DNA of 38,491 bases from positions 1 through 38,491 of the forward strand of contig JAQGPI010000058.1 of assembly GCA_028293175.1 (NCBI GenBank). The letters are read 5' to 3'. Source of the DNA: Verrucomicrobiaceae bacterium (GTDB lineage: Bacteria > Verrucomicrobiota > Verrucomicrobiia > Verrucomicrobiales > Verrucomicrobiaceae). Under the pieces are notes generated by a model. That model made no database searches. It saw only the letters and a program-made list of their open reading frames with translations, and was not told the DNA's origin. Made by a program: the position numbers and the translations under genes. Shown here piece after piece: positions 2,645 through 30,903 of the stretch (its first letter is position 1; each line of letters opens with the position of its first letter).

Positions 2645-3463
2645 TTAGCGGCGACTGCGCTGTTTTACTGCTGGTTCCGCTTCTTGTGCGCGGCTTTTCT
2701 TTGCCGGTCCATCTAGCGTGGTGCGGCCGGATGTGGGAGTGGCTTTAAGCACTTGGAATTCCTGGAGTGCGGGAGATTCCACGATGGTGATGCCGTCGGA
2801 TGTGTTCCAGGGTGCGGTCACATCCATTTCACCGTCGTCGCCGGTGCCGGTGGAGTCGTTGTACCACTGATCCACAATGCCAGGGGTAGGGGGGATAAGG
2901 CCGACAGAAAGGGCACCTTTGCCGAGGCTATCGAGGGCCTGCATGAATGCGCGCATGTGCGTGATTTCACGAGTCATGAGGAACTGCAGGGCGTCGATGG
3001 TTCCGCGGTCGTCGCAGAAATTGATCAGCCGTTCATAGACGATTTTAGCTCTCGCTTCCGCAGCAATGTTGCTCCGGAGGTCAACGTCGAGCTCGCCGGT
3101 GATCTTCAGGTAGTCTGAGGTCCATGGATTGCCCATGGAGTTGCACAGGGCCACGCCGCCACCGCCAGCAATAGCGATGAGGGGATCGGCCTCGGCTGCC
3201 TCCCCATTGAGCTTCATCGGCTTCAGATGCATGCGGGCAAGCGTGCCGATGACTTCCAGGTGGCTGAGCTCCTCGGTTCCGATGTCCATCAGGAGGTCCT
3301 TGCAGGCCACGTCCTCACAATTGATTCCTTGGATGGAGTATTGCATCGCTGCAGCTAGTTCTCCGTTTGCGCCTCCGAACTGCTCGAGCAACATGTTGCC
3401 AAAGCGAGGGTCCGGCTGGCCAATGCGGACTGTGTACATGAGTTTTTTTATGTGGTGATACAT
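2645..3463 (-). CDS. Manganese catalase (non-haem)
   Basis: Starts MYHHIKKLMYTVRIGQPDPRFGNMLLEQFGGANGELAAAMQYSIQGINC; contains DIGTEELSHLEVIGTLARMH and MTREITHMRAFMQAL metal-ligand regions. Confidence 0.93.
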   Translation of the reverse strand: MYHHIKKLMYTVRIGQPDPRFGNMLLEQFGGANGELAAAMQYSIQGINCEDVACKDLLMDIGTEELSHLEVIGTLARMHLKPMKLNGEAAEADPLIAIAGGGGVALCNSMGNPWTSDYLKITGELDVDLRSNIAAEARAKIVYERLINFCDDRGTIDALQFLMTREITHMRAFMQALDSLGKGALSVGLIPPTPGIVDQWYNDSTGTGDDGEMDVTAPWNTSDGITIVESPALQEFQVLKATPTSGRTTLDGPAKKSRAQEAEPAVKQRSRR

Positions 3464-3902: not shown

Positions 3903-6884
3903 ATGATGACAAAGTTAATCTGCGCGTCCCTACTGCTCATCCTGGGCGGCATTGGCCGTGCCCAAGCTCCTAAACCTCCTGTCGCACCTGCACCAGCCCC
4001 TAAGGCTCCGGCAGCACCTGCGGCCCCCGCCGCTCCAGCAGCCCCGGCCATTGATGCCGCGTCGCCCGATTTGCAGACGGCAGTCACGAAGGCCTATGAA
4101 GAAGGCTTTGCGCTCATGCAGGAGGGCAAGTTCAAGGAGGCGCTCGACAAGGTGAATTTCATCACCTCCAAGATGGCGAAGCCTTTTGCGCCCGTGCGCT
4201 TCATGGAAGGCGCCTGCTGGTTCAATCTCGGCGACTTCGCCAAGGCATCGACGGCTTTCGAGACCTACCTGAAGGAATACCCCACCGAGACGGATGTGAA
4301 TGGCGTGAAGATGGGCCTGGCGCGCTGCTACCTCAAGACCGGCAAGGATGAAGATGGTGTGAAGCTGCTGCTGGAAGTGGCCGGCGTGCCGGAGCTGAAA
4401 GGCGAAGCAGGCCTCTTGCTGGCGGATCATTACAAGAAGGCGAACAACAACGAGGAAGCCCTCAAAATTCTGACCAGCATCGTCGCCGATGGCGTGCGCT
4501 CGCCGGAGCAAATCCAGGCGGCGCTGATGGCGGCGGACATGTATGTGGCGGCTGGCGAGACCGACAAGGCCGGCCAAATGCTGGAAAGCGTCAAGGGCGG
4601 CGGCGGCACCTCCGGCGAAAACGTCATCCAGCTCAACAACCTCGGCCTCAAGCTGGGCGATAAGATGCTGGAAGAGAAGGCCTTCCGTCAGGCCCTCACT
4701 GCTTATCAGTCGGTGCGCCGCAAGAGCGAAGTGGTGCGCCTGCAGAAGGAGCGCATTGCCAAATTCCAACTGGCGATCAGCAAGGCCAAGAGCGGCAAGG
4801 AAGATCTGGAAGCCAAGATGGCGGCGGACAAGGGCATGCTCGATGAGCTAGAAAAGCGCACGGATTACGATGCCTCATTGTTCTACCGCCTGGGCCGCTG
4901 TTATTTTGAAATGCAGCGCCCCTGGGAAGCGATCCTGGCCTTCGATGCCATCGTCACCGAGTTCAAGGATTTCCCGCAGCGCGACAAGGCGATGTACGGC
5001 CTTATCATGGCCAATGCCTCGCTGAAGCGCATCAAGGTGGCGCAAGAGCAGTGCGAGCGCTTCATTCGCGATTTCCCCGACAGCTCGGAAGTAGGCACCA
5101 TTTCGGAGCTGTTCGGCATGCTCTCCTATCAGGTCGGCGATCTGGAAGGCGCTGAAAAGAACTTCAACAAGGCCAAGAACTTCCCGAAGGCGGACAAGGA
5201 AAAGATGCTCTACTTGCGCGGCAACGTGCTGTTTGAAATGCAGCGCTTCCAGGATGCCATCACCGAGTTCGAGATCCTCAAGAAGGACTTCCCCACCTCC
5301 GCCTATATGGATGATGCGGAGTACCGCATCGCGCTGGCTTACTTCTACCAGAACGATTTCCCCAACACGTTGAAGGCCCTCCAGGCCTATATCAAGGGCC
5401 ATGCCAAGGGCCAGTACGTGATCGATGCCAAGTACCGCCTCGCCTTCATCAAGTTCCAGGGCGGCAAGGTGGATGAAGCCATGAAGGAACTCATCAGCCT
5501 CGTCGAAGAGTCCCCCAATGATCCCAATATCGCCCAGGTTTACATCCTGCTGGCGGATGGTTTCAGCCGTAAGGCGACCTCTTCGCAGAACCCCGAAGCG
5601 GACTACGAAAAGGCGCTGGAAGGCTACATGAACGGCGTTAAAAAGGCGAAGACCGAAGACGTGCTAAAGTACGCCATGGAGCAGGCCACCGAGCTGTTGC
5701 AGTCCTCCAACAAGTGGACCGAGCTCGCGGACATGTGGAACACTTACCTGAAGACGCATGACAAGGACCCGAACGTGCGGCTGAAGGCCATCTACTGGGT
5801 CACGCGCGCCCTGATTCACGATCAGAAGGTCGAAGAAGCCAAGAAGCTGCTGGCCGACAACATCCGCCCCTATATCAGCAATCCAGGCAATGATCAGGTC
5901 GAAGGCCTGATACAGCAGCTCTGCACGCTGATGGTGCCCAAGAAGCGCCGCCCTGCTCCCGTGGCGGCGGTTACTGAAGTTAGCACCACTCCCGCCGCCC
6001 GAGCAGGAGGCGAGGCACCCGCACCGGCCGCCGCGCCGGAACCGCCGGCTCTTTCACCAGCCGATGCCAAGGCTGCCGCCGCCGCCGCGAATGCCGCCGC
6101 CTTCGAGGATTTGCAAAAGCAGCTCGAAGAGATGCTCAAGCCTGACCCAATGACGCCTGTGGCAAACATTCGCATCATGTTTGCCCGCGCCTTCCTGGCG
6201 CAAAAGATGCGCCTGATCGAGCAGGCCGAAAAGATCTACAACATCATCATTGAAGTCTCGAAGCCTGAAGACTTGAGCCCCCTGCTGCTTTCCGTGGTGG
6301 GTGACAATGCCCGCAAGAAGGGCATTTTCGAAAAGGCGCAGGGCTGCTATGAGCGCCTTCAGGCGATCTTCCCGGACAGCGAATACGCCGATGGCGCGCC
6401 TGTGGGTCTGGGTGAAATCCACTTCAGCAAGGGCGAGTTCGATGCCGCTTTGAAGGCCTTTGATGAAGCTACCAGCGAGAAGTATCAAGGCAGTGGCCGT
6501 CTCCTCGATGCCACGCTGGGCAAGGCGAAGACGCTCTTGAAGCTGAACAAGCTGGACTTGGCCGAAAAGGAATATGACCGCATCGCCCGCCTGAAAGAGT
6601 GGCGCATGTCATGGGCGGAGGCGCTCTATGGCCTGGGTCAGGTGAAGGAAGCGCGCAAGGATTACGCCGGTGCCATCGCGTTCTACCAGCGTGTGTTCAT
6701 CGCCCATCAGAAGTACAAGGACTGGATGGCCCGCGCCTACCTGCAATCCGCCCGCTGTTTCCTTCTCTTGAACAAGAAGGACGAAGCCAAGAAGACGCTG
6801 CAGGAGATGATTAAGCGCAACGACATCAAGGAGCAGCCCGAATTCAAGGACGCGCAAAAGGAACTGAACAAGCTGGGGAATTAG
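3903..6884 (+). CDS. Large secreted TPR-repeat protein
   Basis: Signal-like start MTKLICASLLLILGGIGRAQA, Pro/Ala linker, then many TPR-like units (e.g. SLFYRLGRCYFEMQRPWEAILAFDAIVTEF). Confidence 0.85.
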   Translation: MMTKLICASLLLILGGIGRAQAPKPPVAPAPAPKAPAAPAAPAAPAAPAIDAASPDLQTAVTKAYEEGFALMQEGKFKEALDKVNFITSKMAKPFAPVRFMEGACWFNLGDFAKASTAFETYLKEYPTETDVNGVKMGLARCYLKTGKDEDGVKLLLEVAGVPELKGEAGLLLADHYKKANNNEEALKILTSIVADGVRSPEQIQAALMAADMYVAAGETDKAGQMLESVKGGGGTSGENVIQLNNLGLKLGDKMLEEKAFRQALTAYQSVRRKSEVVRLQKERIAKFQLAISKAKSGKEDLEAKMAADKGMLDELEKRTDYDASLFYRLGRCYFEMQRPWEAILAFDAIVTEFKDFPQRDKAMYGLIMANASLKRIKVAQEQCERFIRDFPDSSEVGTISELFGMLSYQVGDLEGAEKNFNKAKNFPKADKEKMLYLRGNVLFEMQRFQDAITEFEILKKDFPTSAYMDDAEYRIALAYFYQNDFPNTLKALQAYIKGHAKGQYVIDAKYRLAFIKFQGGKVDEAMKELISLVEESPNDPNIAQVYILLADGFSRKATSSQNPEADYEKALEGYMNGVKKAKTEDVLKYAMEQATELLQSSNKWTELADMWNTYLKTHDKDPNVRLKAIYWVTRALIHDQKVEEAKKLLADNIRPYISNPGNDQVEGLIQQLCTLMVPKKRRPAPVAAVTEVSTTPAARAGGEAPAPAAAPEPPALSPADAKAAAAAANAAAFEDLQKQLEEMLKPDPMTPVANIRIMFARAFLAQKMRLIEQAEKIYNIIIEVSKPEDLSPLLLSVVGDNARKKGIFEKAQGCYERLQAIFPDSEYADGAPVGLGEIHFSKGEFDAALKAFDEATSEKYQGSGRLLDATLGKAKTLLKLNKLDLAEKEYDRIARLKEWRMSWAEALYGLGQVKEARKDYAGAIAFYQRVFIAHQKYKDWMARAYLQSARCFLLLNKKDEAKKTLQEMIKRNDIKEQPEFKDAQKELNKLGN

Positions 6885-6887
6885 CAT

Positions 6888-7862
6888 TTGAAAGCGATGA
6901 GGTATTTTGTTTCAGCAGTGGTAATGGCGGGTTATCTCGTCCTCGCGGGCTTGGCCCAGGGGCAGACCATCATTTTGAAGGACGGCAGCAAGCTCGGCCC
7001 CGAGCAGTTCAGGATTGAGGGTGGCAAGGTGGTGAAGCTGGTGAAAATCGGCGAGCAGACCTCCAAGGCAGCCTTGCCCCTGAACAGCGTGGCGAAGCTC
7101 GAGTGGCCCGTCTCCGAAGAACTGGTCACCGGCTCCAAGCTAATGGCCGAAGGCAAGACCGCCGAAGCCATGGCCATGCTCAAGAAGGGCATGGAAATGT
7201 TTGAGCCGCTCAAGGATGTGGAAGGCAACTGGTTTGCCGATCTCTCCTTCGCCTATGTGGAAGCACTGGTGCAGGCCGGTGAAGTGACGGACGTGGTGAA
7301 GACCCTGCCCAGCCTGAAATCCTTGAAGCTCTCCGATGCCCAGAAGCTCAAGCTCAAGATCATCCAGCTCAACATGGACCGCCAGACTGGTGCCAATGCC
7401 GACGCCGTCGTGGGTCAGGCGCAAAACATCCTGGGCGAGACGGATGACTCCAGCGTGGGCGCTTCCTTGTGGACCATCATCGGCGATGTGTACTTCAAGC
7501 AGAAGCAGTGGGAAAAGGCCCTCCTCGCCTATCTGCGCGTGCCCGTCTTCTACGGCACCCAGGTGCAAAAGGTGCCGGAGGCCGAATTCCTCAGTGCCCA
7601 ATGCCTGGCGAAAATGAAGCGTTTCGAAGACGCCCAGTCGTATTACAAACGATTGATCGAGACCTATCCAGGTTCCACGGTGGCGGAAAAGGCAGCCAAG
7701 GAAAGCGCCGCCATCAACGGGCTCAAGAACGAGGACGAGACCACCGCCGGCAAGCCCGCCGCCCCCAAGACTGATGACAAGAAGGACGGCACCACCGCTG
7801 CCGCCGCCGCCGAACCTGCCCCCGCAACACCGGAAGCCAAGCCGGAAGCCGCCGCCAAATAA
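6888..7862 (+). CDS. Secreted TPR-containing protein with Ala/Pro-rich C-terminus
   Basis: TTG at 6888 or ATG at 6897; signal-like N-terminus; TPR-like ASLWTIIGDVYFKQKQWEKALLAYLRV; immediately follows the large TPR gene. Confidence 0.75.
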   Translation: MKAMRYFVSAVVMAGYLVLAGLAQGQTIILKDGSKLGPEQFRIEGGKVVKLVKIGEQTSKAALPLNSVAKLEWPVSEELVTGSKLMAEGKTAEAMAMLKKGMEMFEPLKDVEGNWFADLSFAYVEALVQAGEVTDVVKTLPSLKSLKLSDAQKLKLKIIQLNMDRQTGANADAVVGQAQNILGETDDSSVGASLWTIIGDVYFKQKQWEKALLAYLRVPVFYGTQVQKVPEAEFLSAQCLAKMKRFEDAQSYYKRLIETYPGSTVAEKAAKESAAINGLKNEDETTAGKPAAPKTDDKKDGTTAAAAAEPAPATPEAKPEAAAK

Positions 7863-7886: not shown

Positions 7887-8774
7887 ATGCGCACCACCCT
7901 CTCCATGAATCCGCACTCCATGCAAACTCAACCAGCCAAAGCGTTCCTCCGGGCCGGCGTCTGCGCCGTGCTGATGATCGGCGGTTTCTCCCTCGTTTCC
8001 CCAGCCTTCGCCCAGGCCGATGCCAATGGCCTTAAGCCCGGTGAAACCAAGGTCACCGAATCGCACAAGACGATGTTGGAGATTTGGAACGAAGGCGGGC
8101 TAGTGATGTACCCCCTGGGCTTCTGCTCCATCATGCTCGTCTGGCTTTCTGTCGATGTCATGATGCGCACCTCGCCGAAGAACATGGCCCGCCCTGCATA
8201 CATGACCCAGCTTCAGGACCTCTTCCGTGCAGGTGATTACGTCGGCGCCTATCAGTTCGCCAAGAACAATCCCTCCACCGCCACTGATGTCACCCGCATC
8301 ACCCTCAGCTACATCGGCGACGGCCAGGAAGCCACCGAGTACGCCCTGGCGGACAGCCTCAGCAAAGTGAATGCCGGCATCCAGACGCGCATCAACTACC
8401 TCTCCGTTATCGGCGTTTGCACCCCGATGATCGGTCTGGTGGGTACGGTTATCGGGATGATGAAGGCCTTCGCCAACATGGGCAGCGCCGGTATCGGCGA
8501 TCCGTCCGGCCTTGCGAAGTCCATCGGGGAAGTGCTTATCGCTACCGCCTCCGGTCTGTTCATCGCCATCCCGGCTTTCATCATGTTCTACCTGCTGCGC
8601 AACCGTCTCCAGGTCTCCATGCACCTTGTGCAGGAAGAACTCACCGCCCTGTTCCGCAAGATGCCTTACAGCCACCTGAAGGATTGCCACGTGGGTGAGG
8701 AAGAATTCTTCGCCGCCACACCGAACTGGGTTGCCGGCGGTGCCGCACCGGCCGCTGAGCCTGCCCATGCGTAA
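7887..8774 (+). CDS. MotA/TolQ/ExbB proton channel family protein
   Basis: INYLSVIGVCTPMIGLVGTVIGMMKAFANM and IGEVLIATASGLFIAIPAFIMFYLLRNR match the ExbB/TolQ core; N-terminal signal-like extension. Confidence 0.92.
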   Translation: MRTTLSMNPHSMQTQPAKAFLRAGVCAVLMIGGFSLVSPAFAQADANGLKPGETKVTESHKTMLEIWNEGGLVMYPLGFCSIMLVWLSVDVMMRTSPKNMARPAYMTQLQDLFRAGDYVGAYQFAKNNPSTATDVTRITLSYIGDGQEATEYALADSLSKVNAGIQTRINYLSVIGVCTPMIGLVGTVIGMMKAFANMGSAGIGDPSGLAKSIGEVLIATASGLFIAIPAFIMFYLLRNRLQVSMHLVQEELTALFRKMPYSHLKDCHVGEEEFFAATPNWVAGGAAPAAEPAHA

Positions 8775-8830
8775 CATGGAAGACGGGACCACCCTTTTTC
8801 ACCCAATCAAACACACAGGAGGATCAAACC

Positions 8831-9271
8831 ATGGCAGGCGGCGGAGGTAATACTGAAAGCGGCGAACCGGAGTTCCAAATTGCTCCGATGATCGACGTGC
8901 TGCTCACGCTGCTCATCTTCTTTATGAGCATCACATCGGCGCAGGTGCTGAGGATCGACAAGGAGATCCAATTGCCTGTGGCATCTGATTCCAAGAAGAA
9001 GGATGAGAACCAAGCTATGAACGAGGCCGCGCTGAACATCCGCTGGCAGGCCTTGCAGCAAAAGGCCCTCATCACTTTTGAGGACAAGCCGTATCCGGAT
9101 GTTGAGCCCCTCGTGGACATCATCAAGGGCCGCAAGGACCGCAATCCCAAGTACAAGGTGGTGATCCGCGGTGACAAAAACATGCCCGCCATCGAGATTC
9201 AAAAGGTCATGACGCTCGTCGGTCAGGCAGGCATTGATGAAATCTCGTTCTCAGCCCTGAACAAAGAGTAA
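8831..9271 (+). CDS. ExbD/TolR biopolymer transport protein
   Basis: FQIAPMIDVLLTLLIFFMSITSAQ TM helix with conserved Asp, plus a periplasmic domain. Confidence 0.9.
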   Translation: MAGGGGNTESGEPEFQIAPMIDVLLTLLIFFMSITSAQVLRIDKEIQLPVASDSKKKDENQAMNEAALNIRWQALQQKALITFEDKPYPDVEPLVDIIKGRKDRNPKYKVVIRGDKNMPAIEIQKVMTLVGQAGIDEISFSALNKE

Positions 9272-9280
9272 CAACCGACT

Positions 9281-9754
9281 ATGTCCGCAGCACCTACGAA
9301 GGGGAAAAGAAGGCGTCCCGAGGAACCTGAAGCCGTCAACATGGGCTTCCAGATTGCTCCGATGATCGACGTTGTGTTCGTCATCATGCTGTTCTTCATG
9401 GCGATGGCCGGTGCCGTCAAAGTGGAGCGCGAGCTGAAGCAGACTCTGCCCGGCATGGCCCCCGCCACCACCGATGCTCCGGATGTGCCGGATGAAATCA
9501 TGGTGGGCGTGGAGGAGACCGGCTCCGTCACCCTCAATGAAGAGGAACTCGACCCTGCCACCAGCAAAATGATGCCCAATTTCACCGCGACCATGAAGCG
9601 GCTGAAGGACGAGGCGGATAACCGCAAGGCGAAGGTGCTCGTCACCATCAAGGCGGAGGAGCAGGCCAAGTATGAGCGCGTGATCGACGTGCTCAATGCC
9701 ATGGCCCGCGCCCAGGTCAGCAACGTTACTTTCACCGTCGGCGGCGAGGACTAG
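9281..9754 (+). CDS. Second ExbD/TolR biopolymer transport protein
   Basis: GFQIAPMIDVVFVIMLFFMAMAGAV TM helix with conserved Asp; starts 9 bp after the first ExbD stop. Confidence 0.9.
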   Translation: MSAAPTKGKRRRPEEPEAVNMGFQIAPMIDVVFVIMLFFMAMAGAVKVERELKQTLPGMAPATTDAPDVPDEIMVGVEETGSVTLNEEELDPATSKMMPNFTATMKRLKDEADNRKAKVLVTIKAEEQAKYERVIDVLNAMARAQVSNVTFTVGGED

Positions 9755-9915
9755 CAGCTCCCGAGCAAAATTTGCCGCATTATTTTCCAAGATCCCGCAA
9801 TGTCAGCCGTGAAGCGCGACTGACGCCCTCAAGAATTCTCTTTTCCAGCAGCCTCCGTTCTGTTTTGATCAATACAGAGGAGTCTAGCCACCGGAACCCC
9901 TAGTTAGCCAAGCCC

Positions 9916-12132
9916 ATGAGCCAGGACCCTGCCAATCCGAATCCGCCGCCACCGCCATCTGGAGTGCCGGTGCCTGATCCGCAAGCCGGACAGCCAGGCA
10001 TGCCGCCAGGATACCCGCCCCAGGGTTATCCCCAGGGCATGCCGCCCGGCTATCAGCAGCATCCCGGCATGCCGCCGGGATACCCGCCGCAAGGCTATCC
10101 TCAGGGTTACCCGCAGCAGCCGGGCTATCCGCAGGGATATATGCCGCCGCCTCCTGGTTATCCACCGGGCTATCCTCAGCAGGGCGGATATCCACCGCCT
10201 CAAGGCTATCCACCGGGCTATCCGCAGCAGCCCGGCTACCCGCAACAGGGATATCCCCAGGGCATGATGCCTCCAGGCTATCCCATGCCCTATCCAGGGC
10301 AGCCGATGCATCCGGGCTATCCGGCCCCAGGGCAGCAGCCCGGTTCCGCATCGCAACAGTTGCCCGCGCCTACGGCTGTCCCCGTGGCCGCCAATCCCGC
10401 CCCCAGCAGCCCTGCGGCTGCGGCGGCTTATGTGCCTCCGGTTGCCACTCCCGTAGCCGCAGCAGTGGCCCTGCCTGCGCCAGATTCGGTCCCGGTCCAT
10501 CTTTCAGCAGCGTCCGCCATGCCTGTGACCGAACAGCACGCGGTGGGCGAGGAGGTTTTCCATCCGGCAGCCGCCCATGACTTTGGCCCACCGCCGAAGA
10601 AGAACAAGATGATCGAATGGTGGCGCACTGTCGGTGGCGGTTCGCTCACCCTCAGTATCGCCGTCCACGTCGGCATTTTCATCATCGCGGGTCTGATCAT
10701 CTTCACCACCCAAACGGTGACGAAGAACGTCGATTTCCTGCCCGGTGGCGGCACCAACCAGGGAGCCCAGGCTTCCCAGGACTTGCAGCACAAGGTGCAG
10801 AACAAGAAGCAGAAATCGATCAGCAAGACCACGCCTCTGCGCAAAGTGGTGAGCACGAGCAGCAACTCCACGATGTCGCTGCCTGAAACCCCTCCAGACA
10901 TCCTCAGTGTGCCCGAAGTGAGCAGCATGATGGGCGGCAGCATGGGTGCCTCCGGCGGCTTCGGCGCAGGCGGCGCAGGTGGTGGTTTCGGCAAAGGCGT
11001 CGGCATGGGCGGAGCGGCTGGCTTCGTCAGCCTGCCGCCTTCCATGCGTGCTCGTTGCTCCACGGCGGAACGTCTCGAAAAGCTGCGCCAGAATGGCGGC
11101 AATCCGGAGTGCGAGGCCGCTGTGTCGCGTGCTCTGGAGTGGCTGAAGACCAAGCAGAATCCCGATGGCTCCTGGGGCAGCGGCTACAAGGCCGCGATGA
11201 CCGGCATGGCGCTGCTGTGCTACTTGGGACGGTGTGAGACACCAGAGTCGCCGTTCTACGGGGAGAACGTCACCAAGGGCATCCTTTACCTCATCGAGCT
11301 CTCGAAGAAAAACGAGTACGGCATGATCGCCGAAAACATCAAGCAGAGCGGCGCCACCTATGAGCATGGTATTGCTACTTACGCCCTCGGCGAAATGTAC
11401 ACGCTGGCTCGTCTGGGCTCCAAGAGCCTGCCGGGCATGCGCGATGCCTTCGAAAAGGGAGTGGAGCTGATTATCAAAAACCAAAAGGATGAAGGCGGCT
11501 GGGGCTACGGCGGCACCGGCGACATGGCCTACAACCGCGAAGGCGGCTCGGACTTGTCCGTCACCGGCTGGCAGTATCAGGCCCTCAAGGCCGCCAAACA
11601 TACCGGCCTCAAGATCCCCAAGCTTACCTCCTCCATCCAGCTCACGATGAAGTACCTGGAAAGCAAGCAGACGAAGGATGGCGGCATCGGCGGCATCAAC
11701 CGCGACCAGGCCTACAACCAGTGGAACCTCACCGGCACCGGCGTGCTGGGCTTGCAAACCCTCGGCAAGGGCAAGACCAGCGTGATCGACAAGGGCATCA
11801 AGTTCCTCCGTACCTTTACCGCCGCTGAACCGTTGGATTGGAACAAGAACTGCAATCTGTACTGCTGGTACTACTACACGCAGGCCTTCTTCCAAAAGGG
11901 CGGCGACGACTGGAAGTTCTACAACGAAATGCTGCTGCCGCAGTTGCTCAACAACCAGGCTCCCGATGGTAGCTGGAAGGCCGAGCGCTCCAACAACATC
12001 GGCGGCGCAGGCAATCAAGAAGGCGGCATCTACAAGGCCACCCTCTGCACCCTGCAGCTCGAAGTGTACTACCGCTACCTCAAGGTGGCCGACCGCGACG
12101 AAGAATCCTTCTTCGACAAGGGTGCCAAGTAA
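9916..12132 (+). CDS. TonB-like-anchored prenyltransferase/squalene-cyclase-like repeat protein
   Basis: N-terminal PPGYPPQGYPQ repeats, single TM SLTLSIAVHVGIFIIAGLIIF with an SxxxH motif, Gly-rich linker, then QW-type repeats (LKTKQNPDGSWGSG, IIKNQKDEGGWGYG, LESKQTKDGGIGG, LLNNQAPDGSWK). Confidence 0.82.
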   Translation: MSQDPANPNPPPPPSGVPVPDPQAGQPGMPPGYPPQGYPQGMPPGYQQHPGMPPGYPPQGYPQGYPQQPGYPQGYMPPPPGYPPGYPQQGGYPPPQGYPPGYPQQPGYPQQGYPQGMMPPGYPMPYPGQPMHPGYPAPGQQPGSASQQLPAPTAVPVAANPAPSSPAAAAAYVPPVATPVAAAVALPAPDSVPVHLSAASAMPVTEQHAVGEEVFHPAAAHDFGPPPKKNKMIEWWRTVGGGSLTLSIAVHVGIFIIAGLIIFTTQTVTKNVDFLPGGGTNQGAQASQDLQHKVQNKKQKSISKTTPLRKVVSTSSNSTMSLPETPPDILSVPEVSSMMGGSMGASGGFGAGGAGGGFGKGVGMGGAAGFVSLPPSMRARCSTAERLEKLRQNGGNPECEAAVSRALEWLKTKQNPDGSWGSGYKAAMTGMALLCYLGRCETPESPFYGENVTKGILYLIELSKKNEYGMIAENIKQSGATYEHGIATYALGEMYTLARLGSKSLPGMRDAFEKGVELIIKNQKDEGGWGYGGTGDMAYNREGGSDLSVTGWQYQALKAAKHTGLKIPKLTSSIQLTMKYLESKQTKDGGIGGINRDQAYNQWNLTGTGVLGLQTLGKGKTSVIDKGIKFLRTFTAAEPLDWNKNCNLYCWYYYTQAFFQKGGDDWKFYNEMLLPQLLNNQAPDGSWKAERSNNIGGAGNQEGGIYKATLCTLQLEVYYRYLKVADRDEESFFDKGAK
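9976..10345 (+). repeat. Low-complexity tandem coding repeat (PGYPPQGYPQ-type)
   Basis: Recurring ccgggctatccgcagcag / ccgggatacccgcc units within the CDS. Confidence 0.8.
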
Positions 12133-12166
12133 CAGGCTCGGCTCCTGCTGATTAGCTTCGATTTTG

Positions 12167-12197
12167 AACAAGGGCTCTTCGGAGCCCTTGTTTGTTT
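12167..12197 (+). terminator. Intrinsic terminator
   Basis: CAAGGGCTC-TTCG-GAGCCCTTG stem-loop followed by TTTGTTTT. Confidence 0.9.
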
Positions 12198-12355
12198 TGG
12201 AGCAGAAAGATTACGGATTCGGAGCGGAATCCGAAAGGCGGTGCTCAATGCGGATTTGTCTTGTGACCGTTGTATCTACACCGTATTCTCGCGTTCCCGA
12301 GAATTCCTTTGAATTTGCCCTGCGTCTTTTTCTCATGTGCGCCTCCTTTTTGATC

Positions 12356-15300
12356 ATGAAGAAGCCCGGGCGCGTCTTTGCCCGCCGGGCCATGGCGGCC
12401 TTGCTGGGGCTCATGGGCCTTACGGCGGTTGACGCAAGGGCGGAAAGGTCGGCACCGGTGGAGTTCGAAATCGCGCCCCTGCCCCCGCCGCCGCCCTGGC
12501 CGGTGCTGGAGGTGAAGATCGGCGATGAATGGCGCACGCCTACTACGCGGATAGCGGCCTGGGGCACCAGCGATCTGGCCCGTCGCGTACCCGTGGGGCT
12601 GGAGTATGTAGTGGCGGTGGCCGCCGGGGAGACCCAGGCCCTGGCCTTGAAGAGCGATGGCACAATGGTGGGCTGGACGGATGCCGATTATCGCACAGGC
12701 ATGGAGGTGCCGCAGGGGCTGACCGGCGTGGTGGCCATCGCGGCCTGCTATGCCTACAGTGAGGCGGTGCTGCAGGACGGCACGGTGGTGCATTGGGGGG
12801 ATGCGGTGTCATCGCGCGCGGGATCGCCGTTCGCCCCGCCTCGGGGGCTCACGGGCGTGAAGAAGATTGCGGCGGCGGGCGCCCACTCGGTGGCGCTGAT
12901 GAACGATGGCACGGTGACGTGCTGGGGCGATGCCCGCTTTCACCAGACGAATGTACCGGCGGGGCTGGCAGACGTCACCGCAGTAGCGGCCGGGGCCGCC
13001 CACAGCTTGGCGTTGAAGAGCGATGGCACGGTGGTGGCCTGGGGTTCGAACCAATCCGGCGAAGCGACGGTGCCAAGGGATCTGGGCAGGGTGATCGCGA
13101 TTGCCGCAGGCAGCGGTTTCAGCCTGGCGCTGCAGGCGGATGGCACGGTGCGGGTCTGGGGTGTGAATGGTTATGACCTTGTGCGCGTGCCTGCCGGTCT
13201 CACGGGCGTGGTGCAGATCGCGGCAGCGGGGGATCACAGCCTGGCACTGAAAAGCGATGGCACGGTAGTGGCCTGGGGCGCGGGCGGGCTGCCCTCCAAT
13301 CTTGCGCCCACCGGTCCGGATGGCTCGCCCAAGATTGGCGGTGTGCAAGCGCTGGTGGCGGGCAACAATTTCAATGCGGCGATCGTCAGCTCCATAGAGA
13401 TGGACCGCGCCCCGCCCGGCGCGAACAGCACCACCAGCAGCCCGCCCCTGCGCCTGCGCAATCCCGGCTCGCTCCCGCTCCTTGGCGTGCGCACGCTGGT
13501 GGGCAATGTGGCGGAGGGCAGCTTTTCGCTGGATGAGGTTAGCGACCCGATCAATCCGTTGGGGATCAGGCAACTGCAGGTGCGCTACACCCCCACGGTA
13601 GATGCGGATTCGTACACGCGGCTGCAAATCATGACCGATGTGACCCAGCGGGCGCGGGACTACACGATCTTCGCCAGATTTGCCAAGCTGGGCATGATTG
13701 ATGCCCAGGGCGATGCGGTTTCCACCACCGGTGCCACGAAAGTGGTGGCCTGGGGGCAGAAAGACTATGGCGAAGGGTCTCCGCCCGCAGACCTCACCAA
13801 TGCGGTGAGCATCGCCGCCGGGGGAAATATGAGCATGGCCCTGAGAAGCGATGGCACGGTGACCCACTTTGGCTGGTACAACAGCGCGCCCCCGTATCCG
13901 GGCTCCCCGCCGGATGAGGCGGTGAACATCCGCGCCATTGCGGCGGGCGACACCTTCTATCTGGGGCTCACCGATGAGGGCACGGTGGTGCAGCGGGGCG
14001 GCGGCGATACGGCGCTGATCCCCAAGGGCTTGTCCCATGTGGCGGCCATCGCCGCTGGCAGCGCGGCCCTGGCCTTGAAACAGGATGGCACGGTCGTGAT
14101 CTGGGGCGACAATCCTTATTCACCTTACTTGACTCCGCCCAAGGGGCTGAAGGAGGTCACTGCCATCGCGACGGGTGATTACGGCCCCACGCTGGCGGTG
14201 AAGCTGGATGGCACCGTGGTGAGCTGGGGGATGGACAATTACGCCGATGCCGCTTTCCACTCGACCAAGCCGCCCAAGGGACTGGCCAATGTGAAGGCCG
14301 TGGCCGCCGGCCGCTATCATGCCCTGGCGCTGAAGTTTGATGGAACCGTGGTGGCCTGGGGCGAAAACGATCCCTGGGCCCACCCGGAAGTGCCCGGCCT
14401 GCTCGATGTACCGCAGGGGCTCAGCGGCGTGACCGCCATCGCCGCCAACATTTACCACTCCGCCGCGCTGAAGGCCGATGGCACCATGGTCTGCTGGGGC
14501 CCCGGCTACGCGCGCAGCACCATGGTGCCGCCACGGCTCAGCGGCGTGATTGGCATCGCCACCGGCGTGGCCCACACCCTGGCGCTCACGGAGAGCGCGG
14601 GCACCTTCGCCACCACCCCGGTGCAGCAATCGCGCTCGCACCAGCTTTCCATCAGCAACGAAGGCACCCGCACGCTGGAGAACGTGCTCGTCGTGATCTC
14701 CGGACGGGATGCGGACGAGTTCAAGATGGATAAAAAACCGTCCTCCACTGTAGGATACCATCCCGCGCCCTTCACCCTCACCTTCACCCCCAGGCGCCCC
14801 GGCCCGGCCCTGGCCGAGCTGAAGGTGCATGCCAACACGCAGGACTCCTGGTTCGTCCTGCCGCTCACCGGCATGGGCGCGCCGCCGCCGTTCCTGATCA
14901 CGGCGGCGAGGGCGGGCACGCGCGGCGCCAGCTTCACTTACGCCTCTCCCAGGTCCGATCCGGTCACCGGCCTGATGCTCCAGCGCCTGACTTTTAAAAA
15001 CACCACCGGCTGGCGGTTGGACGGGCTGCGCCTGAGCCTCGCGCGCCTTCCCGTCGGCATCTCGCTCTACAGCGGCAGTGATGGAATCACCCCCGGCACG
15101 CTGGAGGTGCTTTATACCAAGCCCGTGCAGGCCGCCGAAATGGTGAGCTTTGATCTGGTGTACTTCGATCCCTACCGCCGCACCGCCGCCAGCCTCAACC
15201 CGCTCATCAAGGTGGCCCCGCTCGAAGCTGCGGTGGCCAATCCCGCCCCGGTGGACGGCAAGCTCATCCCTGTGCGCCGCATCCGCGACACGGCGGCAGG

Positions 15301-15502
15301 CCCGCTGCTGGACTGGCCCACGGTGCGTGGCAAAATTTATGTCGTGGAGTATTCCGACAACCAGGGCGCGAACTGGCACAGCGCCGTCCACCGCCTCACC
15401 GGCGGCACCACCGGCCTGCGCTGGATCGACCGTGGCCAGCCCGAGACGTTCTCAAAACCGCTGAACAAAGCGGCGCGGATGTACCGGGTGAAGGAGCTTT
15501 AG
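12356..15502 (+). CDS. Secreted RCC1-repeat (beta-propeller) protein, paralog A
   Basis: ATG at 12356 (MKKPGRVFARRAMAALLGLMGLTAVDARA signal-like); two sets of seven RCC1-like units with the SLALKSDGTVVAWG core; the track start at 12164 lies inside the upstream terminator. Confidence 0.85.
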   Translation: MKKPGRVFARRAMAALLGLMGLTAVDARAERSAPVEFEIAPLPPPPPWPVLEVKIGDEWRTPTTRIAAWGTSDLARRVPVGLEYVVAVAAGETQALALKSDGTMVGWTDADYRTGMEVPQGLTGVVAIAACYAYSEAVLQDGTVVHWGDAVSSRAGSPFAPPRGLTGVKKIAAAGAHSVALMNDGTVTCWGDARFHQTNVPAGLADVTAVAAGAAHSLALKSDGTVVAWGSNQSGEATVPRDLGRVIAIAAGSGFSLALQADGTVRVWGVNGYDLVRVPAGLTGVVQIAAAGDHSLALKSDGTVVAWGAGGLPSNLAPTGPDGSPKIGGVQALVAGNNFNAAIVSSIEMDRAPPGANSTTSSPPLRLRNPGSLPLLGVRTLVGNVAEGSFSLDEVSDPINPLGIRQLQVRYTPTVDADSYTRLQIMTDVTQRARDYTIFARFAKLGMIDAQGDAVSTTGATKVVAWGQKDYGEGSPPADLTNAVSIAAGGNMSMALRSDGTVTHFGWYNSAPPYPGSPPDEAVNIRAIAAGDTFYLGLTDEGTVVQRGGGDTALIPKGLSHVAAIAAGSAALALKQDGTVVIWGDNPYSPYLTPPKGLKEVTAIATGDYGPTLAVKLDGTVVSWGMDNYADAAFHSTKPPKGLANVKAVAAGRYHALALKFDGTVVAWGENDPWAHPEVPGLLDVPQGLSGVTAIAANIYHSAALKADGTMVCWGPGYARSTMVPPRLSGVIGIATGVAHTLALTESAGTFATTPVQQSRSHQLSISNEGTRTLENVLVVISGRDADEFKMDKKPSSTVGYHPAPFTLTFTPRRPGPALAELKVHANTQDSWFVLPLTGMGAPPPFLITAARAGTRGASFTYASPRSDPVTGLMLQRLTFKNTTGWRLDGLRLSLARLPVGISLYSGSDGITPGTLEVLYTKPVQAAEMVSFDLVYFDPYRRTAASLNPLIKVAPLEAAVANPAPVDGKLIPVRRIRDTAAGPLLDWPTVRGKIYVVEYSDNQGANWHSAVHRLTGGTTGLRWIDRGQPETFSKPLNKAARMYRVKEL

Positions 15503-15567: not shown

Positions 15568-15645
15568 AGCATTACCTCGTTGTAATGCTTGCGCGCAGGG
15601 CATGTCTTGCGTGGGGGGCGTATTAGAAGGATAAAGGCCCTGCCA

Positions 15646-18600
15646 ATGAAAACCATGCCCACAGGTGCTGCCCTTGCCTTCCTGCTACTGCTGGCGGGCG
15701 GTGTGGTGGCGCGGGCGGACCAATCACAGCAGCCGGTGGCGGTGCTGGAACAATTCGATTACGACATCGGCAGCTGGCAGCCCGCGAGCTCGCGGCTGGT
15801 GGGCTGGGGGCGGGATGCAGCACTCATCGCCGCCATGCCGATGGGGCTGGAGGGCGTGGATCAGGTGGCGGTGGGCGATGATCATGTGCTGGCGCTGATG
15901 AGCGATGGCACGGTGGTGGCCTGGGGCAGACCGGGCAGCAGCAGTGGGGATCCTAGCCAGGGCCGTGCGCTCACGCGGTTCGGCCAAGTGTATGGCATCG
16001 CGGCGGGCGCAGCCCACAGCTATGCGCTGATGGCCGATGGCACGGTGGTGGCCTGGGGCTTGGGCGGCAGTTACATAGTGCCCGGGGTGAGGGGTGTGGT
16101 GAAATTGGAGGCCAGGAACCACTTCGTCCTGGGGCTGAAGGGCAATGGCACGCTGGCCGCCTGGGGCGATGATTGGGGCGAGATCGCGCTGCCTGCCGGG
16201 CTCACCGATATGGTGGATGTGGCGCAGGGTTACCTACACTGCCTGGCCTTGCGCCGCGATGGCACGGTGGTGGCCTGGGGCATGAACGGCAACGGCGAGT
16301 GCAATGTGCCTGCCAATCTGGGGCCTGTGAAGAGCATCGCGGCGGGCTCCGCTTTCAGCGTGGCGCTGCTGGCCGATGGCACGGTGACCGCCTGGGGCAG
16401 CAACGCACAGGGCCAGCTCGATGTGCCCGCCGGACTCAGCGATGTGGTGTGGATCAAGGCCGGTCTCTACCATGCCCTAGCCTTGAAGAAAGATGGCTCA
16501 CTGGTCCGTTGGGGGGATCGCAACACGGAGCAGCCGCCGCTGCCGCCCGTGGGCGGGGTGGTGGACATGGCGGCGGGCATCTCTGCGGACTTCGTGATCG
16601 TGCGCTCGATCACCCTGGACCGCTTTGATCGAAGCTGGGCTCCCTCCGCCCGCAGCCTGCCTTTGCGCCTGCGCAATCCCAGCACCACCACGGCCATCAA
16701 TGGTCTGGCGCCGGGCTTTGATCCGGTAACCCAGGGGAAATTCGCCCTCGCATCCTTCAACAAGGCAGACACCGCGACCTTTGCGCTCGATCCGGTGATC
16801 GCGCCGGGCAAGGTATCCAAGGTGTTCCAGATCGATTACACCATGTCGGCGGATGTGGATACCTTCACCCGCCTGCACAGTCCGAACGGCACCGAGCGGC
16901 CGCTGATGGATGCGACGGTGATCGTGGGCAGGGCGAAGCTGGACGTGGTGGATGTGTTTGGCGAGCGGATCTCCCTCACCGGCGAAACGAAGGTAAAGGC
17001 CTTCGGCCCGATCACTGTGCCGGAAGGGCTGAACCATGTCTCCAGCCTCGTTGCCGGACCGTGGAACAGCGCGGCGCTGAACAAGGACGGCACAGTGGCG
17101 GTCTGGGGCTTTACCGCTCCCAATGTGATCCCGCCGCTCACCGATGTCACCTCCGTCGCCGTGGGGGCCGATCACTTCCTCTTCCTTAACGGTCAGCGCA
17201 AAGTGGTGGGCTTGGGTCCGGGTTACGGCAATCTGAAGGTGATTGAGGGGCTGGCCAATGTGACCGCAGTGGCGGCGGGCGAATACCACAGCCTGGCCTT
17301 GAAGGCGGATGGCACGGTGGTGGCCTGGGGCGACAATACCTACGGCGAATGCAATGTGCCCAAGGGGCTGAAAGGGGTGACGGCGATTGCCGGAGGCGCC
17401 TCCGGTGTGTCATTGGCGCTGAAAATCGATGGCACGGTGACCGGCTGGGGCGAGAACCGTTACGGTGCCTCCAAGCCGCCTGCGAACCTGAAAAAAGTGA
17501 AGGCGATAGGCGCCGGGCGCCGCCATTCGCTGGCACTAAAGACCGATGGTACGGTGGTAGCCTGGGGCGACACACTGGGGGCGAACCCGAAAGACCCGCC
17601 CGCAGGGCTGGCCGGTGTGACGGCGATTGCCGCCAGCGAAACGCACAATCTGGCGCTGAAGGACGATGGTACCGTGGTCGGCTGGGGTGACAATTCCAGA
17701 GGCCAGCTCACCATGCCCGCCGGGCTCGATGGCGTGATCGGCGTGGCCGCTGGCGGTAACTACTCCCTGGCGCTGATGGAGGGCGCGAGCACCTTTGCCC
17801 CCACCGTTCTCGGGCACTCGCGGGTGCACCATCTTTCTGTCAAGAACATAGGCTCGCTGAAGATGGAGCTAAGCGGCGCTGTCCTCAGGTCGAACCAGGG
17901 GGGCTTCAAGCTCGAGGGGGTGGCGGCCTACAAAGGGCCCTATGATCCGCCAGTCACCCTCGGGTCCACGCCGCTGTCCCTCACCATCACCTTCACCCCC
18001 ACGCACGTAGGGCCGCACGCGGCGTATCTCGAGATTTACAGCCCTGACCGGGGCGGCCCCTTCACCCTGCTGCTCACGGGCTACGGGAAGCTGCCGTCGG
18101 TGGAGGCGACAGCGGCGAAGCCGGGCACGGTCGGCGCCACCTTCACCGCCGGGCCGCTGCGCTCTGATCCACTCACCGGCGTGCTGCTCCAGCGCCTCGT
18201 CTTCACCAATATCTCCGGCTACCGCCTGGAAGGCCTGCGCCTGGCGGTCTCCCACCTCGCTTCCGGCCTTTGGCTGCACAGCAGCTACTCCGGCGAGACC
18301 CCGGGCACCACGGAGGTCCTCTACCGCGCGCCCATCGGCATAGGCGAAACGGTGAGCTTTGACCTCGTGTATCAGGATGCGTACCGGCGCAATCCCGCCA
18401 GCCTCAGCCCTGTGGTGGAGGCCCTGCCATCTGAGTACGGCGGCGCCGGCGGCATGTTCGACGGCACGCTGGTGCCCCTGCGCAGCGTGCGCGATACGCC
18501 CCAGGGCCCGCTGCTGGATTTCGCCACCAAGCGCACCGAGGTTTACGGGGTGGAGTACTCGGATAACGGCGGCATTACTTGGAATGGTGCCTCGCAGGTT

Positions 18601-18708
18601 TTCTCCGCCACTATCCGCGTGCTGTGGATTGACCGTGGCCCGCCCGCGACGATTTCTAAGCCGCTGAACAAAGCGGCGCGGATTTACCGGGTGAAGGAAT
18701 TGAATTAG
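15646..18708 (+). CDS. Secreted RCC1-repeat (beta-propeller) protein, paralog B
   Basis: ATG at 15646 (MKTMPTGAALAFLLLLAGGVVARA signal); 7+7 RCC1-like units; C-terminus WIDRGPPATISKPLNKAARIYRVKELN nearly matches paralog A. Confidence 0.85.
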   Translation: MKTMPTGAALAFLLLLAGGVVARADQSQQPVAVLEQFDYDIGSWQPASSRLVGWGRDAALIAAMPMGLEGVDQVAVGDDHVLALMSDGTVVAWGRPGSSSGDPSQGRALTRFGQVYGIAAGAAHSYALMADGTVVAWGLGGSYIVPGVRGVVKLEARNHFVLGLKGNGTLAAWGDDWGEIALPAGLTDMVDVAQGYLHCLALRRDGTVVAWGMNGNGECNVPANLGPVKSIAAGSAFSVALLADGTVTAWGSNAQGQLDVPAGLSDVVWIKAGLYHALALKKDGSLVRWGDRNTEQPPLPPVGGVVDMAAGISADFVIVRSITLDRFDRSWAPSARSLPLRLRNPSTTTAINGLAPGFDPVTQGKFALASFNKADTATFALDPVIAPGKVSKVFQIDYTMSADVDTFTRLHSPNGTERPLMDATVIVGRAKLDVVDVFGERISLTGETKVKAFGPITVPEGLNHVSSLVAGPWNSAALNKDGTVAVWGFTAPNVIPPLTDVTSVAVGADHFLFLNGQRKVVGLGPGYGNLKVIEGLANVTAVAAGEYHSLALKADGTVVAWGDNTYGECNVPKGLKGVTAIAGGASGVSLALKIDGTVTGWGENRYGASKPPANLKKVKAIGAGRRHSLALKTDGTVVAWGDTLGANPKDPPAGLAGVTAIAASETHNLALKDDGTVVGWGDNSRGQLTMPAGLDGVIGVAAGGNYSLALMEGASTFAPTVLGHSRVHHLSVKNIGSLKMELSGAVLRSNQGGFKLEGVAAYKGPYDPPVTLGSTPLSLTITFTPTHVGPHAAYLEIYSPDRGGPFTLLLTGYGKLPSVEATAAKPGTVGATFTAGPLRSDPLTGVLLQRLVFTNISGYRLEGLRLAVSHLASGLWLHSSYSGETPGTTEVLYRAPIGIGETVSFDLVYQDAYRRNPASLSPVVEALPSEYGGAGGMFDGTLVPLRSVRDTPQGPLLDFATKRTEVYGVEYSDNGGITWNGASQVFSATIRVLWIDRGPPATISKPLNKAARIYRVKELN

Positions 18709-23084: not shown

Positions 23085-24356
23085 ATGAAAGCCCCCACGC
23101 TCGCTACTCCCTCCTCCTCCCTCAGCCGCCGCCATTTTATTACTCGCTCAGCCGCAGGCCTGCTTGCCGCCGGTCTACCCACAGGATGGGTCGGCAGCGT
23201 GTATGCTGATGACTCGCCAGAGGTCACTGACATCAAGCTCGGCATCATTGCCCTCACCGATTGCTCGCCCATCGTGATTGGTCATGAGAAGGGCTTCTTC
23301 AAGAAGTTCGGCATCAACTCCACCGTTAGCAAAGAAGCGTCCTGGGCAGTGATTCGTGACAAGCTCACCACCGGTGAAAACCAGGCCACGCACATGCTCA
23401 TCGGCATGCCTCTTGCCTCCACCATGGGCCTCGGCGGCTCGGCGAAAAAGGAGATGGTCATCCCCTGGCTGCTCAACCGCAACGGCCAGGCCATCACGCT
23501 TGCCAACAGCCTCAAAGGTAAGGTGGCGGCTGATCCCAAGGCTTTGAAGCCCATCGTCGATGCGGCCAAGGCGGCCGGTGCTCCGATGACTTTCGCCATG
23601 ACCTTCCCGCCCGGAACACACGCCATGTGGATGCGTTATTTCCTCGCTGCCGGCGGCATCAATCCCGATACCGATGTGAACCTCATCGTGATCCCGCCAC
23701 CCCAGATGGTGGCTAACATGAAGGTGGGCAAAATGGACGGCTTCTGCGTGGGCGAACCCTGGAACGCCCGCTCCATCGCCGAGGACATCGGCTTCACCAG
23801 CATCACCACCCAGGAGATGTGGAAGAACCATCCGGAAAAAGTTTGTGCCTTCACCAAGGAATTCGCCGAGACAAACCCGAAGACCGTGAAGGCCGTATTG
23901 AAGGGCCTGCATGAGGCCAGCGTGTGGCTCGATGATCTGGGCAACCGCAAGGAGCAGTGCGACATCGTCAGCAAGGCCAGCTATGTGAACTGTCCGCCCG
24001 AGATCATCTATGACCGCCTCATGGGCAACATGGACTACGGTGATGGCCGCACCAAGAAGGATGAAGATTACATGATCTTCAGCAGCCGGAACTGCAACTT
24101 CCCTCAGGCCAAGTTTGCCAAGTGGTGGCTAAGCCAGTTCCGTCGCTGGGGCATGGTGGAAGGCGCGCCCGACTATGAAGGCGTGGCGAAGTCGGTCATG
24201 ATGCCATCGCTCTATGAAGAGGCGATGAAGGAAATCGGCTACGCCCACGGCGGTGCCGATGACAAGCCCGAGACCTTCTTTGACGGCGTGACCTTTGACC
24301 CTTCGAAGCCCGAGGAATACGCCAAGAGCTTCGCCGTGAACAGCATCAAGGGCTGA
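23085..24356 (+). CDS. nrtA: Nitrate ABC transporter substrate-binding protein (CmpA/NrtA family), Tat-exported
   Basis: Twin-Arg signal SRRHFITRSAAGLLAAG; VGEPWNARSIAEDIGFT, WKNHPEKVCAFTKEFAE and WLSQFRRWGMV family motifs. Confidence 0.9.
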   Translation: MKAPTLATPSSSLSRRHFITRSAAGLLAAGLPTGWVGSVYADDSPEVTDIKLGIIALTDCSPIVIGHEKGFFKKFGINSTVSKEASWAVIRDKLTTGENQATHMLIGMPLASTMGLGGSAKKEMVIPWLLNRNGQAITLANSLKGKVAADPKALKPIVDAAKAAGAPMTFAMTFPPGTHAMWMRYFLAAGGINPDTDVNLIVIPPPQMVANMKVGKMDGFCVGEPWNARSIAEDIGFTSITTQEMWKNHPEKVCAFTKEFAETNPKTVKAVLKGLHEASVWLDDLGNRKEQCDIVSKASYVNCPPEIIYDRLMGNMDYGDGRTKKDEDYMIFSSRNCNFPQAKFAKWWLSQFRRWGMVEGAPDYEGVAKSVMMPSLYEEAMKEIGYAHGGADDKPETFFDGVTFDPSKPEEYAKSFAVNSIKG

Positions 24357-24378
24357 TGCCCAGCACCCCGCACGAGAC

Positions 24379-25215
24379 ATGAATTCGAAACTTCTCCAAC
24401 GTCTGCTGCTGCCCTTTGTGGGCCTGATCATCGTCCTTGTAGCCTGGCAGGCCCTGTCCGGTTACACGGCTGAAACCAAGCTGCCATCAGGCTTCACCAA
24501 GAAGATCAAGGCAGGCATCATCAAAGATCTGCCGGGCCCTGTGCAGACGTGGACGGCGACGAAGAAATACATCGTGGAGCCCTTTGCCAAACGTGCGGAG
24601 CTCGATCAGGGCGTGCTGCGCTTCACCTGGTACTCGCTCATCATGGTGGGGAAGGGCTATGCGCTCGCGCTGCTCATTGGTACGCCGCTTGGGTTCATGC
24701 TGGGCCTGTCGAAGAAATTCGCCGCCATGTTTGATCCCTTGATCCAGGTGCTGCGGCCCGTGTCGCCGCTCGCCTGGATGCCGCTGGGCGTGGTGCTCTT
24801 CATGGGCGCGGGCAAGGATGCCAATGAACTGGGCGCTCTCTTCACCATCGCGGTCTGCGCCATGTGGCCCACGGTGCTGAATACCGCCGTAGGCGTGCGC
24901 GCCGTGCCACAGGATTACCTCAATGTGGCGAAGGTGCTGAAGCTCTCCTGGCCGAAGACGCTGTGGAAGATCTACCTGCCCGCCACGCTGCCGTACATGT
25001 TCACCGGCTACCGCCTCAGCCTTGGCATTGCCTGGCTGGTGATCGTGGCGGTGGAGATGCTCACCGGTCGCATCGGCATCGGCAACTTCCTCTGGAACGA
25101 ATACAACAACGGCCTCTACACCAGCATCATCCTTTGCATCATCACCATCGGGCTGGTGGGATGGGGCCTGGACCGCCTGATGACCCTGGTGGAGTCGCGG
25201 CTGAAGACGGCATGA
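24379..25215 (+). CDS. nrtB: Nitrate ABC transporter permease
   Basis: Membrane permease with SPLAWMPLGVVLFMGAGKD and IYLPATLPYMFTGYRLSLGIAWLVIVAVEML; follows nrtA. Confidence 0.92.
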   Translation: MNSKLLQRLLLPFVGLIIVLVAWQALSGYTAETKLPSGFTKKIKAGIIKDLPGPVQTWTATKKYIVEPFAKRAELDQGVLRFTWYSLIMVGKGYALALLIGTPLGFMLGLSKKFAAMFDPLIQVLRPVSPLAWMPLGVVLFMGAGKDANELGALFTIAVCAMWPTVLNTAVGVRAVPQDYLNVAKVLKLSWPKTLWKIYLPATLPYMFTGYRLSLGIAWLVIVAVEMLTGRIGIGNFLWNEYNNGLYTSIILCIITIGLVGWGLDRLMTLVESRLKTA

Positions 25216-25249
25216 TGCCGCGCGGCTCGAAATCAAATCGTATCACACC

Positions 25250-27013: not shown

Positions 27014-27059
27014 TGATGACCCTGGTCAAAACAACACCTCCCACGCACACAACACACCT

Positions 27060-28445: not shown

Positions 28446-28462
28446 TCGATTTACCCCACACG

Positions 28463-28499
28463 GCCCTCTTCCCTTCTATTGAAGGGGAAGAGGGCTTTT
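28463..28499 (+). terminator. Intrinsic terminator after porin gene
   Basis: GCCCTCTTCCCTTC-tatt-GAAGGGGAAGAGGGC followed by TTTT. Confidence 0.9.
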
Positions 28500-28524
28500 G
28501 GCGTGGCCTCCCAAAGTGAATGGG

Positions 28525-28551
28525 ATTCATCGTTTGGCTGAAAACAATGAT
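28525..28551. promoter_or_regulatory. Candidate LysR-type operator, copy 2
   Basis: ATTCATCGTTTGGCTGAAAACAATGAT; imperfect TTCA...TGAA dyad; 23/27 identical to 22731-22757. Confidence 0.6.
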
Positions 28552-28578
28552 GAAAACTGAATCCGAAGGGTGCCCGAC

Positions 28579-28595
28579 TTGGCACGGCGGCGGCT
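28579..28595 (+). promoter_or_regulatory. Candidate sigma-54-like -24/-12 promoter, copy 2
   Basis: TTGGCAC-GGCGG-CGGCT, 27 bp after operator copy 2 and just upstream of the ATG at 28608. Confidence 0.4.
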
Positions 28596-28607
28596 ATTCA
28601 GAGAAGC

Positions 28608-29645: not shown

Positions 29646-29657
29646 CCACCGATCTCT

Positions 29658-30863: not shown

Positions 30864-30903
30864 CATCTTTGAACAGCTCCCCAAAATTGCACGCACTGCC
30901 ACC

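Follow-up and report, generated by a model that had tools for sequence, protein, structure and literature searches.

The window analysed here is the whole 38,491-nucleotide stretch of contig JAQGPI010000058.1 from a Verrucomicrobiaceae bacterium (GenBank assembly GCA_028293175.1). It contains a unit of six genes encoding two TPR proteins, an ExbB/TolQ-like motor subunit, two different ExbD/TolR-like subunits, and a 738-aa protein in which a single transmembrane (TM) segment precedes a predicted alpha/alpha toroid (Table 1). The two TPR genes (3903-7862) stand before the motor genes and lead directly into the ExbB gene. The 161-bp gap between the second ExbD gene and the toroid gene includes no terminator-like site on the + strand. 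An earlier note on this DNA, made from the sequence alone, had described the ExbB, ExbD, ExbD and 738-aa open reading frames, and these were found at identical coordinates and with clear Pfam matches.

Table 1. Genes of the six-gene unit and parts of the 738-aa protein, with positions in the window.
Feature	Position	Strand	Extent	Basis and remarks
Large TPR protein	3903..6884	+	993 aa	Pfam TPR families down to 4.6e-35; opens conserved set
Small TPR protein	6888..7862	+	324 aa	TPR_6 1.5e-9
ExbB/TolQ-like motor subunit	7887..8774	+		PF01618 1.7e-24
ExbD/TolR-like subunit 1	8831..9271	+		PF02472 1.5e-19; PMIDV motif
ExbD/TolR-like subunit 2	9281..9754	+		PF02472 4.2e-18; PMIDV motif
TM-toroid protein, putative transducer	9916..12132	+	738 aa	SQHop_cyclase_C (PF13243) 1e-10, above cut-off
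Pro/Tyr/Gly-rich N-terminal tail, predicted cytoplasmic	9916..10365	+	residues 1-150	Sequence; variable in relatives
TM helix	10636..10716	+	residues 241-267	Hydropathy, AlphaFold helix
Linker, predicted periplasmic	10717..11043	+	residues 268-376 (about 109)	Mostly disordered; conserved VDFLPGGG, GAGGGFGxGxG
Alpha/alpha toroid head	11044..12099	+	residues 377-728	AlphaFold, Foldseek, conservation

Alignment of the window ExbB to TolQ chains in the PDB pairs Thr187 and Thr220 with the essential TolQ residues Thr145 and Thr178, and GTVIG and ATASG with TolQ GTVWG and ATAIG. In an alignment to TolR, the PMIDV motif carried by both ExbDs matches PLLDV, which holds the proton-site Asp. By these alignments, the essential pore Thr pair and the ExbD Asp of the ExbB/TolQ-ExbD/TolR motor are retained.

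The membrane segment and its S-x3-H motif

The TM segment of the 738-aa protein, SLTLSIAVHVGIFIIAGLIIF, is modelled by AlphaFold as a single unbroken 27-residue helix and includes Ser247 (nucleotides 10654-10656) and His251 (nucleotides 10666-10668), which form an S-x3-H pattern. Relatives have anything between about 10 and more than 300 residues before the TM segment. On average the N side of the TM segment is positively and the C side negatively charged, and the N side is the more positive in 92 of 99 homologues. This bias argues for an N-in topology, which would place the toroid domain in the periplasm. In an AlphaFold model of residues 225-738, a disordered linker (predicted local distance difference test, pLDDT, <50 for residues 73-155 of the construct) joins the TM helix to a compact domain of helices.

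The S-x3-H pattern is present in the motor-linked TM-toroid proteins of 15 of 22 families (one protein per family), the TM segments of which are otherwise divergent. In 5000 shuffles of these TM segments the pattern turned up in 1.5 families on average and never in more than 7, and among the 680 other TM segments predicted in the fetched loci just 7 (1%) contain it. The pattern is thus about 60 times commoner in motor-linked TM segments than in the background, a figure to be read as an effect size, as the families are not independent draws and a binomial probability is not to be taken literally. In alignment A3, the His is invariant and the Ser is conserved in at least 90% of sequences, and both are invariant in alignment A2, which includes proteins with toroid, vWA and PA14 heads.

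In TonB and TolA, the Ser and His of the SHLS motif form the hub for docking on TM1 of ExbB or TolQ, and the hub is linked in turn to the conserved TM1 residues Ser and Trp and to a TM3 Pro (PMC12905483). Within the ExbB family of the window (34 members), Ser81 of TM1 is 94% conserved and Pro229 of TM3 at least 90%; Trp86 is present in only half of the members.

The toroid head

Modelled alone, the toroid reaches a pLDDT of 87.7 and a predicted template modelling score (pTM) of 0.90. In Foldseek, squalene-hopene cyclase comes first by E-value, and the AprG transaldolase and GH76 mannanases lead by TM-score, at about 0.62. The predicted structure settles the fold of the domain, not its function. 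Across 101 toroids from the phylum, nine polar or aromatic residues are conserved (Y482, E493, Y531, D546, S548, W552, Y649, Y652 and R720), and these sit on or beside helices expected to line the barrel, a placement that follows from helix order in the model. Conservation of this kind on inner helices favours a ligand pocket over a bare spacer. Cys motifs around Cys381 and Cys440 co-occur in 66 of the 66 proteins that have either one. A disulfide between the two is possible and fits the co-occurrence, though sequence relatedness could also account for the pattern.

No Pfam match to TonB_C was found in the 738-aa protein. The earlier note had proposed a QW-type toroid on the periplasmic side of an S-x3-H TM segment, in N-in orientation and in place of a TonB C-terminal domain; the model returns the toroid with good confidence, and the motif and charge counts above agree with the rest of that description.

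Three other readings of the head or the locus were dropped. The catalytic DxDD acid motif of squalene-hopene cyclase, by which the terpene cyclase reading was judged, is absent from the window protein, which also scores below the TIGR01507 and TIGR01787 cut-offs; any DxDD after residue 120 is found in 6 of 109 homologues. The CGEQ motif of a thioester (TED/alpha-2-macroglobulin) domain occurs in 0 of 109 proteins. For an anti-phage role of the kind known for motor-subunit systems such as Zorya, only a generic TPR model among the defence models gave a match.

Recurrence and exchange of heads in Verrucomicrobiota

Homologues of the TM-toroid protein are present in 36 of the 37 close genomes, and a sample of 243 genomes of the phylum yielded 119 with one at E <= 1e-30; a pattern scan of genome contigs with this one protein gave only 4 relatives. 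ExbB, ExbD and TPR genes were then mapped around the fetched toroid copies. A TM-toroid gene lies within 1 kb of ExbB/ExbD genes in 22 of about 34 families, which were sampled by best toroid match. The order TPR-TPR-ExbB-ExbD-ExbD-TM/toroid repeats within the organism's own family and over deep branches, and one family (L068) has the order ExbB-ExbD-ExbD-toroid-TPR. In other genera and families, too, a homologue of the large TPR gene stands upstream of the motor, and the place of the small TPR gene between it and ExbB is likewise conserved among relatives.

Matches spanning only residues 222-387 revealed proteins with the same TM segment and linker but different heads. The TM-linker identity to most of these paralogues in alignment A2 is 40-53%, and the linker is common to those with vWA and PA14 heads. 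The best PA14 matches are those in L132 (3.8e-7) and L184 (1.5e-6), and vWA matches are at or below cut-offs, except in L160 (3.1e-8). The slot after the second ExbD gene is occupied by a vWA-headed protein in L180, by a PA14-headed protein in L184, and by a toroid followed by a PA14-headed protein in L132. A vWA-like paralogue is also encoded in the window's own genome, on another contig (L002); it was recognised by a DVSSS stretch and by alignment, being too divergent for a Pfam match.

Several related arrangements were also seen. L153 and L163 hold multi-head clusters, in which tandem genes share the TM-linker and alternate PA14-like and vWA-like heads, with no ExbBD genes near them in the stretches shown. 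The cytoplasmic N-terminus is swapped too, with a SAM domain (3.4e-11) at L184:4680-6317 where the window protein has its Pro/Tyr/Gly-rich tail; L061 has TPR-like N-terminal matches, and the N-termini in L060 and L072 are of similar look. Tandem arrays of membrane-anchored toroids with TM segments lacking S-x3-H are found in genus g12 (L065, L066 and L146), whose ExbB-ExbD-ExbD-TPR locus (L196-L198) stands apart from them in the genome. A related toroid at L069:8634-10190 has an apparent signal peptide and no later TM segment, and may be a free periplasmic or secreted version.

Beyond the six genes, clustering of neighbours brought out nothing but a mutL-like gene, which lies downstream in six families and is taken as an unrelated housekeeping neighbour. 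Elsewhere in the window, a type III polyketide synthase-like gene (174-1337, - strand) and a manganese catalase gene (2645-3463, - strand) lie upstream of the unit. A tandem pair of genes (12164-15502 and 15589-18708) predicts large secreted-looking RCC1-repeat proteins with a choice-of-anchor-D/ASH-like part. A nitrate/nitrite assimilation cluster (23085-36015) includes genes for NMT1-like binding proteins, a permease, a double ABC ATPase, an MFS protein, a flavodoxin reductase and a nitrite/sulfite reductase, and inside it a gene for a fused PP2C phosphatase-protein kinase (30838-32535).

A putative force transducer and its alternatives

The six genes are best read as an ExbBD/TolQR-type machine driven by the proton-motive force, in which the periplasmic head of the transducer is a ligand-binding toroid, and this reading is given a probability of roughly 0.7. 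It is favoured because the arrangement recurs near ExbB/ExbD and TPR genes, S-x3-H persists, the Thr/Thr/Asp set is kept, the topology appears to be N-in, and heads are exchanged on a common TM-linker. It also rests on the conservation of the TM1 Ser and TM3 Pro in ExbB, the TM-linker-head architecture of the AlphaFold model, and the docking via a conserved TM His predicted for a vWA-headed version (PMC12204202). Coupling of the TM-toroid protein to the motor is quite probable. In the proposed scheme, a pentamer of ExbB and a pair of ExbDs, here two different ones, would form the motor, and the 738-aa protein would dock on ExbB through Ser247 and His251 in the manner of TonB and TolA. The flexible linker would cross part of the periplasm with the toroid as working tip, and the two TPR proteins would act as periplasmic partners or scaffolds. 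The toroid most likely binds a ligand, a glycan or another envelope component, and the motor would exert force on it. Many PA14 domains bind carbohydrates, and several relatives of the toroid act on sugars, hence the guess, held with low confidence, that the ligand is a glycan; the toroid possibly has an enzymatic role as well.

Several observations weigh against this scheme. The beta-strand that follows the TM segment in the motor box of TonB and TolA is not seen in the AlphaFold model, which is of low confidence there. The SHLS motif is incomplete in the window protein, with Ala258 at the position of the Leu (His+7) and Ile262 at that of the second Ser (His+11), and 7 of the 22 linked families are without S-x3-H, mostly with no His at that place. 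Natural variants that have lost the TM His are found among motor-linked TM-toroids in L116, where it is Asn, and in L114, L128, L135 and L139. Linkage to the operon is also not obligatory, since 58 of 105 distinct toroid proteins have no ExbB/D gene within 3.5 kb in the fetched stretches, some of which end at contig ends, and since the motor operon stands without an adjoining transducer in several genera of the organism's own family (L172-L176, L181 and L186). Such operons occur in genera g4, g9 and g10 and in one g11 genome. Linked and unlinked copies are mixed on the toroid tree (17 changes, versus 34 in shuffles), indicating that linkage has been gained or lost repeatedly.

One alternative extends the favoured scheme, namely that one generic ExbBD-TPR motor serves many heads, partly in trans and including remotely encoded ones, with the window gene as one client. 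S-x3-H is kept in 28 of the 58 unlinked copies, genomes that have a transducer-free motor operon encode TM-toroids elsewhere, and vWA and PA14 heads are present in multiple copies per genome; the window's own genome has the vWA paralogue L002. However, 4-10 PF01618 matches per genome point to several ExbB homologues, so that clients may use other motors. Either the motor works in trans on several heads or other ExbB paralogues serve the unlinked copies, and a single shared motor has a little less than an even chance of being correct.

It is unlikely that the toroid protein is instead a membrane-anchored periplasmic enzyme, active on terpenoids or glycans, that merely shares an operon with a motor driving other things such as the TPR proteins. 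The best structural matches (squalene-hopene cyclase, AprG and the GH76 mannanases) are enzymes, the pocket is strongly conserved, and many toroid copies lie apart from the motor. Nevertheless, a mere anchor gives no cause for S-x3-H to be kept over the divergent TM segments of 15 families, and heads of vWA and PA14 type, unlike such enzymes, are borne by the same TM-linker; the missing DxDD also argues against it.

A further possibility, less probable again, is that the six genes are this organism's unusual form of Tol-Pal or TonB. The ExbB and ExbDs score nearer to TolQ/TolR than to ExbB/ExbD profiles and the large TPR protein has a YbgF/CpoB profile match, but there is no TonB_C head and each operon has two ExbDs. 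A second, canonical TonB-ExbB-ExbD set is encoded in the same genome (L185), which makes the six-gene system an additional one. It is very improbable that the TM segment is a cleaved signal peptide or plain anchor with a coincidental S-x3-H, for although it falls within the first 20-40 residues in orthologues of some distant families, in the window protein it begins only at residue 241, behind a long low-complexity tail, and is predicted to be one continuous helix with a motif far above background frequency.

The force-transducer reading can be set beside known systems. It shares with TonB-ExbBD and TolA-TolQR a motor with essential Thr/Thr/Asp residues and a single-TM S-x3-H transducer with linker and C-terminal head, but differs in the missing TonB/TolA C-terminal fold and the incomplete SHLS, and has in addition two ExbDs, two TPR genes and the long Pro/Tyr/Gly-rich cytoplasmic tail. 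QW-like repeats, toroid fold and PF13243 match are common to squalene-hopene cyclases and other toroids (AprG, GH76, GH88/105-like), though squalene-hopene cyclases have two toroids rather than a single one of ~350 aa, and theirs are not tethered behind an ExbBD-type TM segment. Planctomycetes have stand-alone toroid proteins annotated as prenyltransferase/squalene oxidase repeat-containing proteins; one of related sequence, on a plasmid of Planctomyces sp. SH-PL62, is 25.7% identical, and the displayed stretch around it has no annotated ExbBD gene.

The closest likeness is to the vWA-headed transducers of the PVC group, described by Williams-Jones et al. in 2025 with an operon of TPR, tolQ-like, two tolR-like and TM transducer genes (PMC12204202). 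The operon type with two heterologous tolR-like genes, the conserved TM His, a disordered domain II of about 100 residues and the absence of a TonB/TolA C-terminal domain are all shared, and the TM-linker is homologous to that of the vWA paralogues found here, at about 40-50% identity. The head in the window is an alpha/alpha toroid (PA14 in other paralogues) and not vWA. The words 'toroid', 'squalene' and 'cyclase' are absent from that paper, and a literature search, which barely covered subscription journals, found no description of toroid- or PA14-headed transducers. Thus, of the earlier note's suggestion of a force-driven transducer in a possibly undescribed Ton/Tol-like machine, the first part is strengthened by recurrence, motif, topology and fold, while the second is not supported in that form, as the operon type is already published with vWA heads. 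Two outcomes that the note had named as refuting its idea, a cleaved signal peptide and a lack of recurrence beside exbBD, were not borne out. The novelty lies in heads of toroid and PA14 type and in the way heads are swapped.

Taken further, and tentatively, one TM-linker module with swappable heads (toroid, vWA or PA14) and variable cytoplasmic modules (Pro/Tyr/Gly tail, SAM or TPR-like), together with a TPR-associated ExbB-ExbD-ExbD motor acting on several heads per cell, partly in trans, may form a platform from which Verrucomicrobiota draw mechanical power for general use. To our knowledge, hardly any well-understood machine other than Ton and Tol carries proton-motive force to the outer membrane. 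The heads suggest testable ligands, and the conserved Ser and His make the idea easy to test genetically. Gut mucin degraders belong to the phylum, and Akkermansia, according to a review (PMC12418764), depends on genes for pili and for periplasmic protein complexes to accumulate mucin in internal compartments. The papers searched on its mucin-use loci do not list these genes; the g12 ExbB-ExbD-ExbD-TPR locus may, as a tentative lead, correspond to them. If phylum-wide head-swapping transducers are real, the same motor would do several other jobs, and this motor type seems to be used far beyond the known nutrient-uptake and envelope-stabilising machines.

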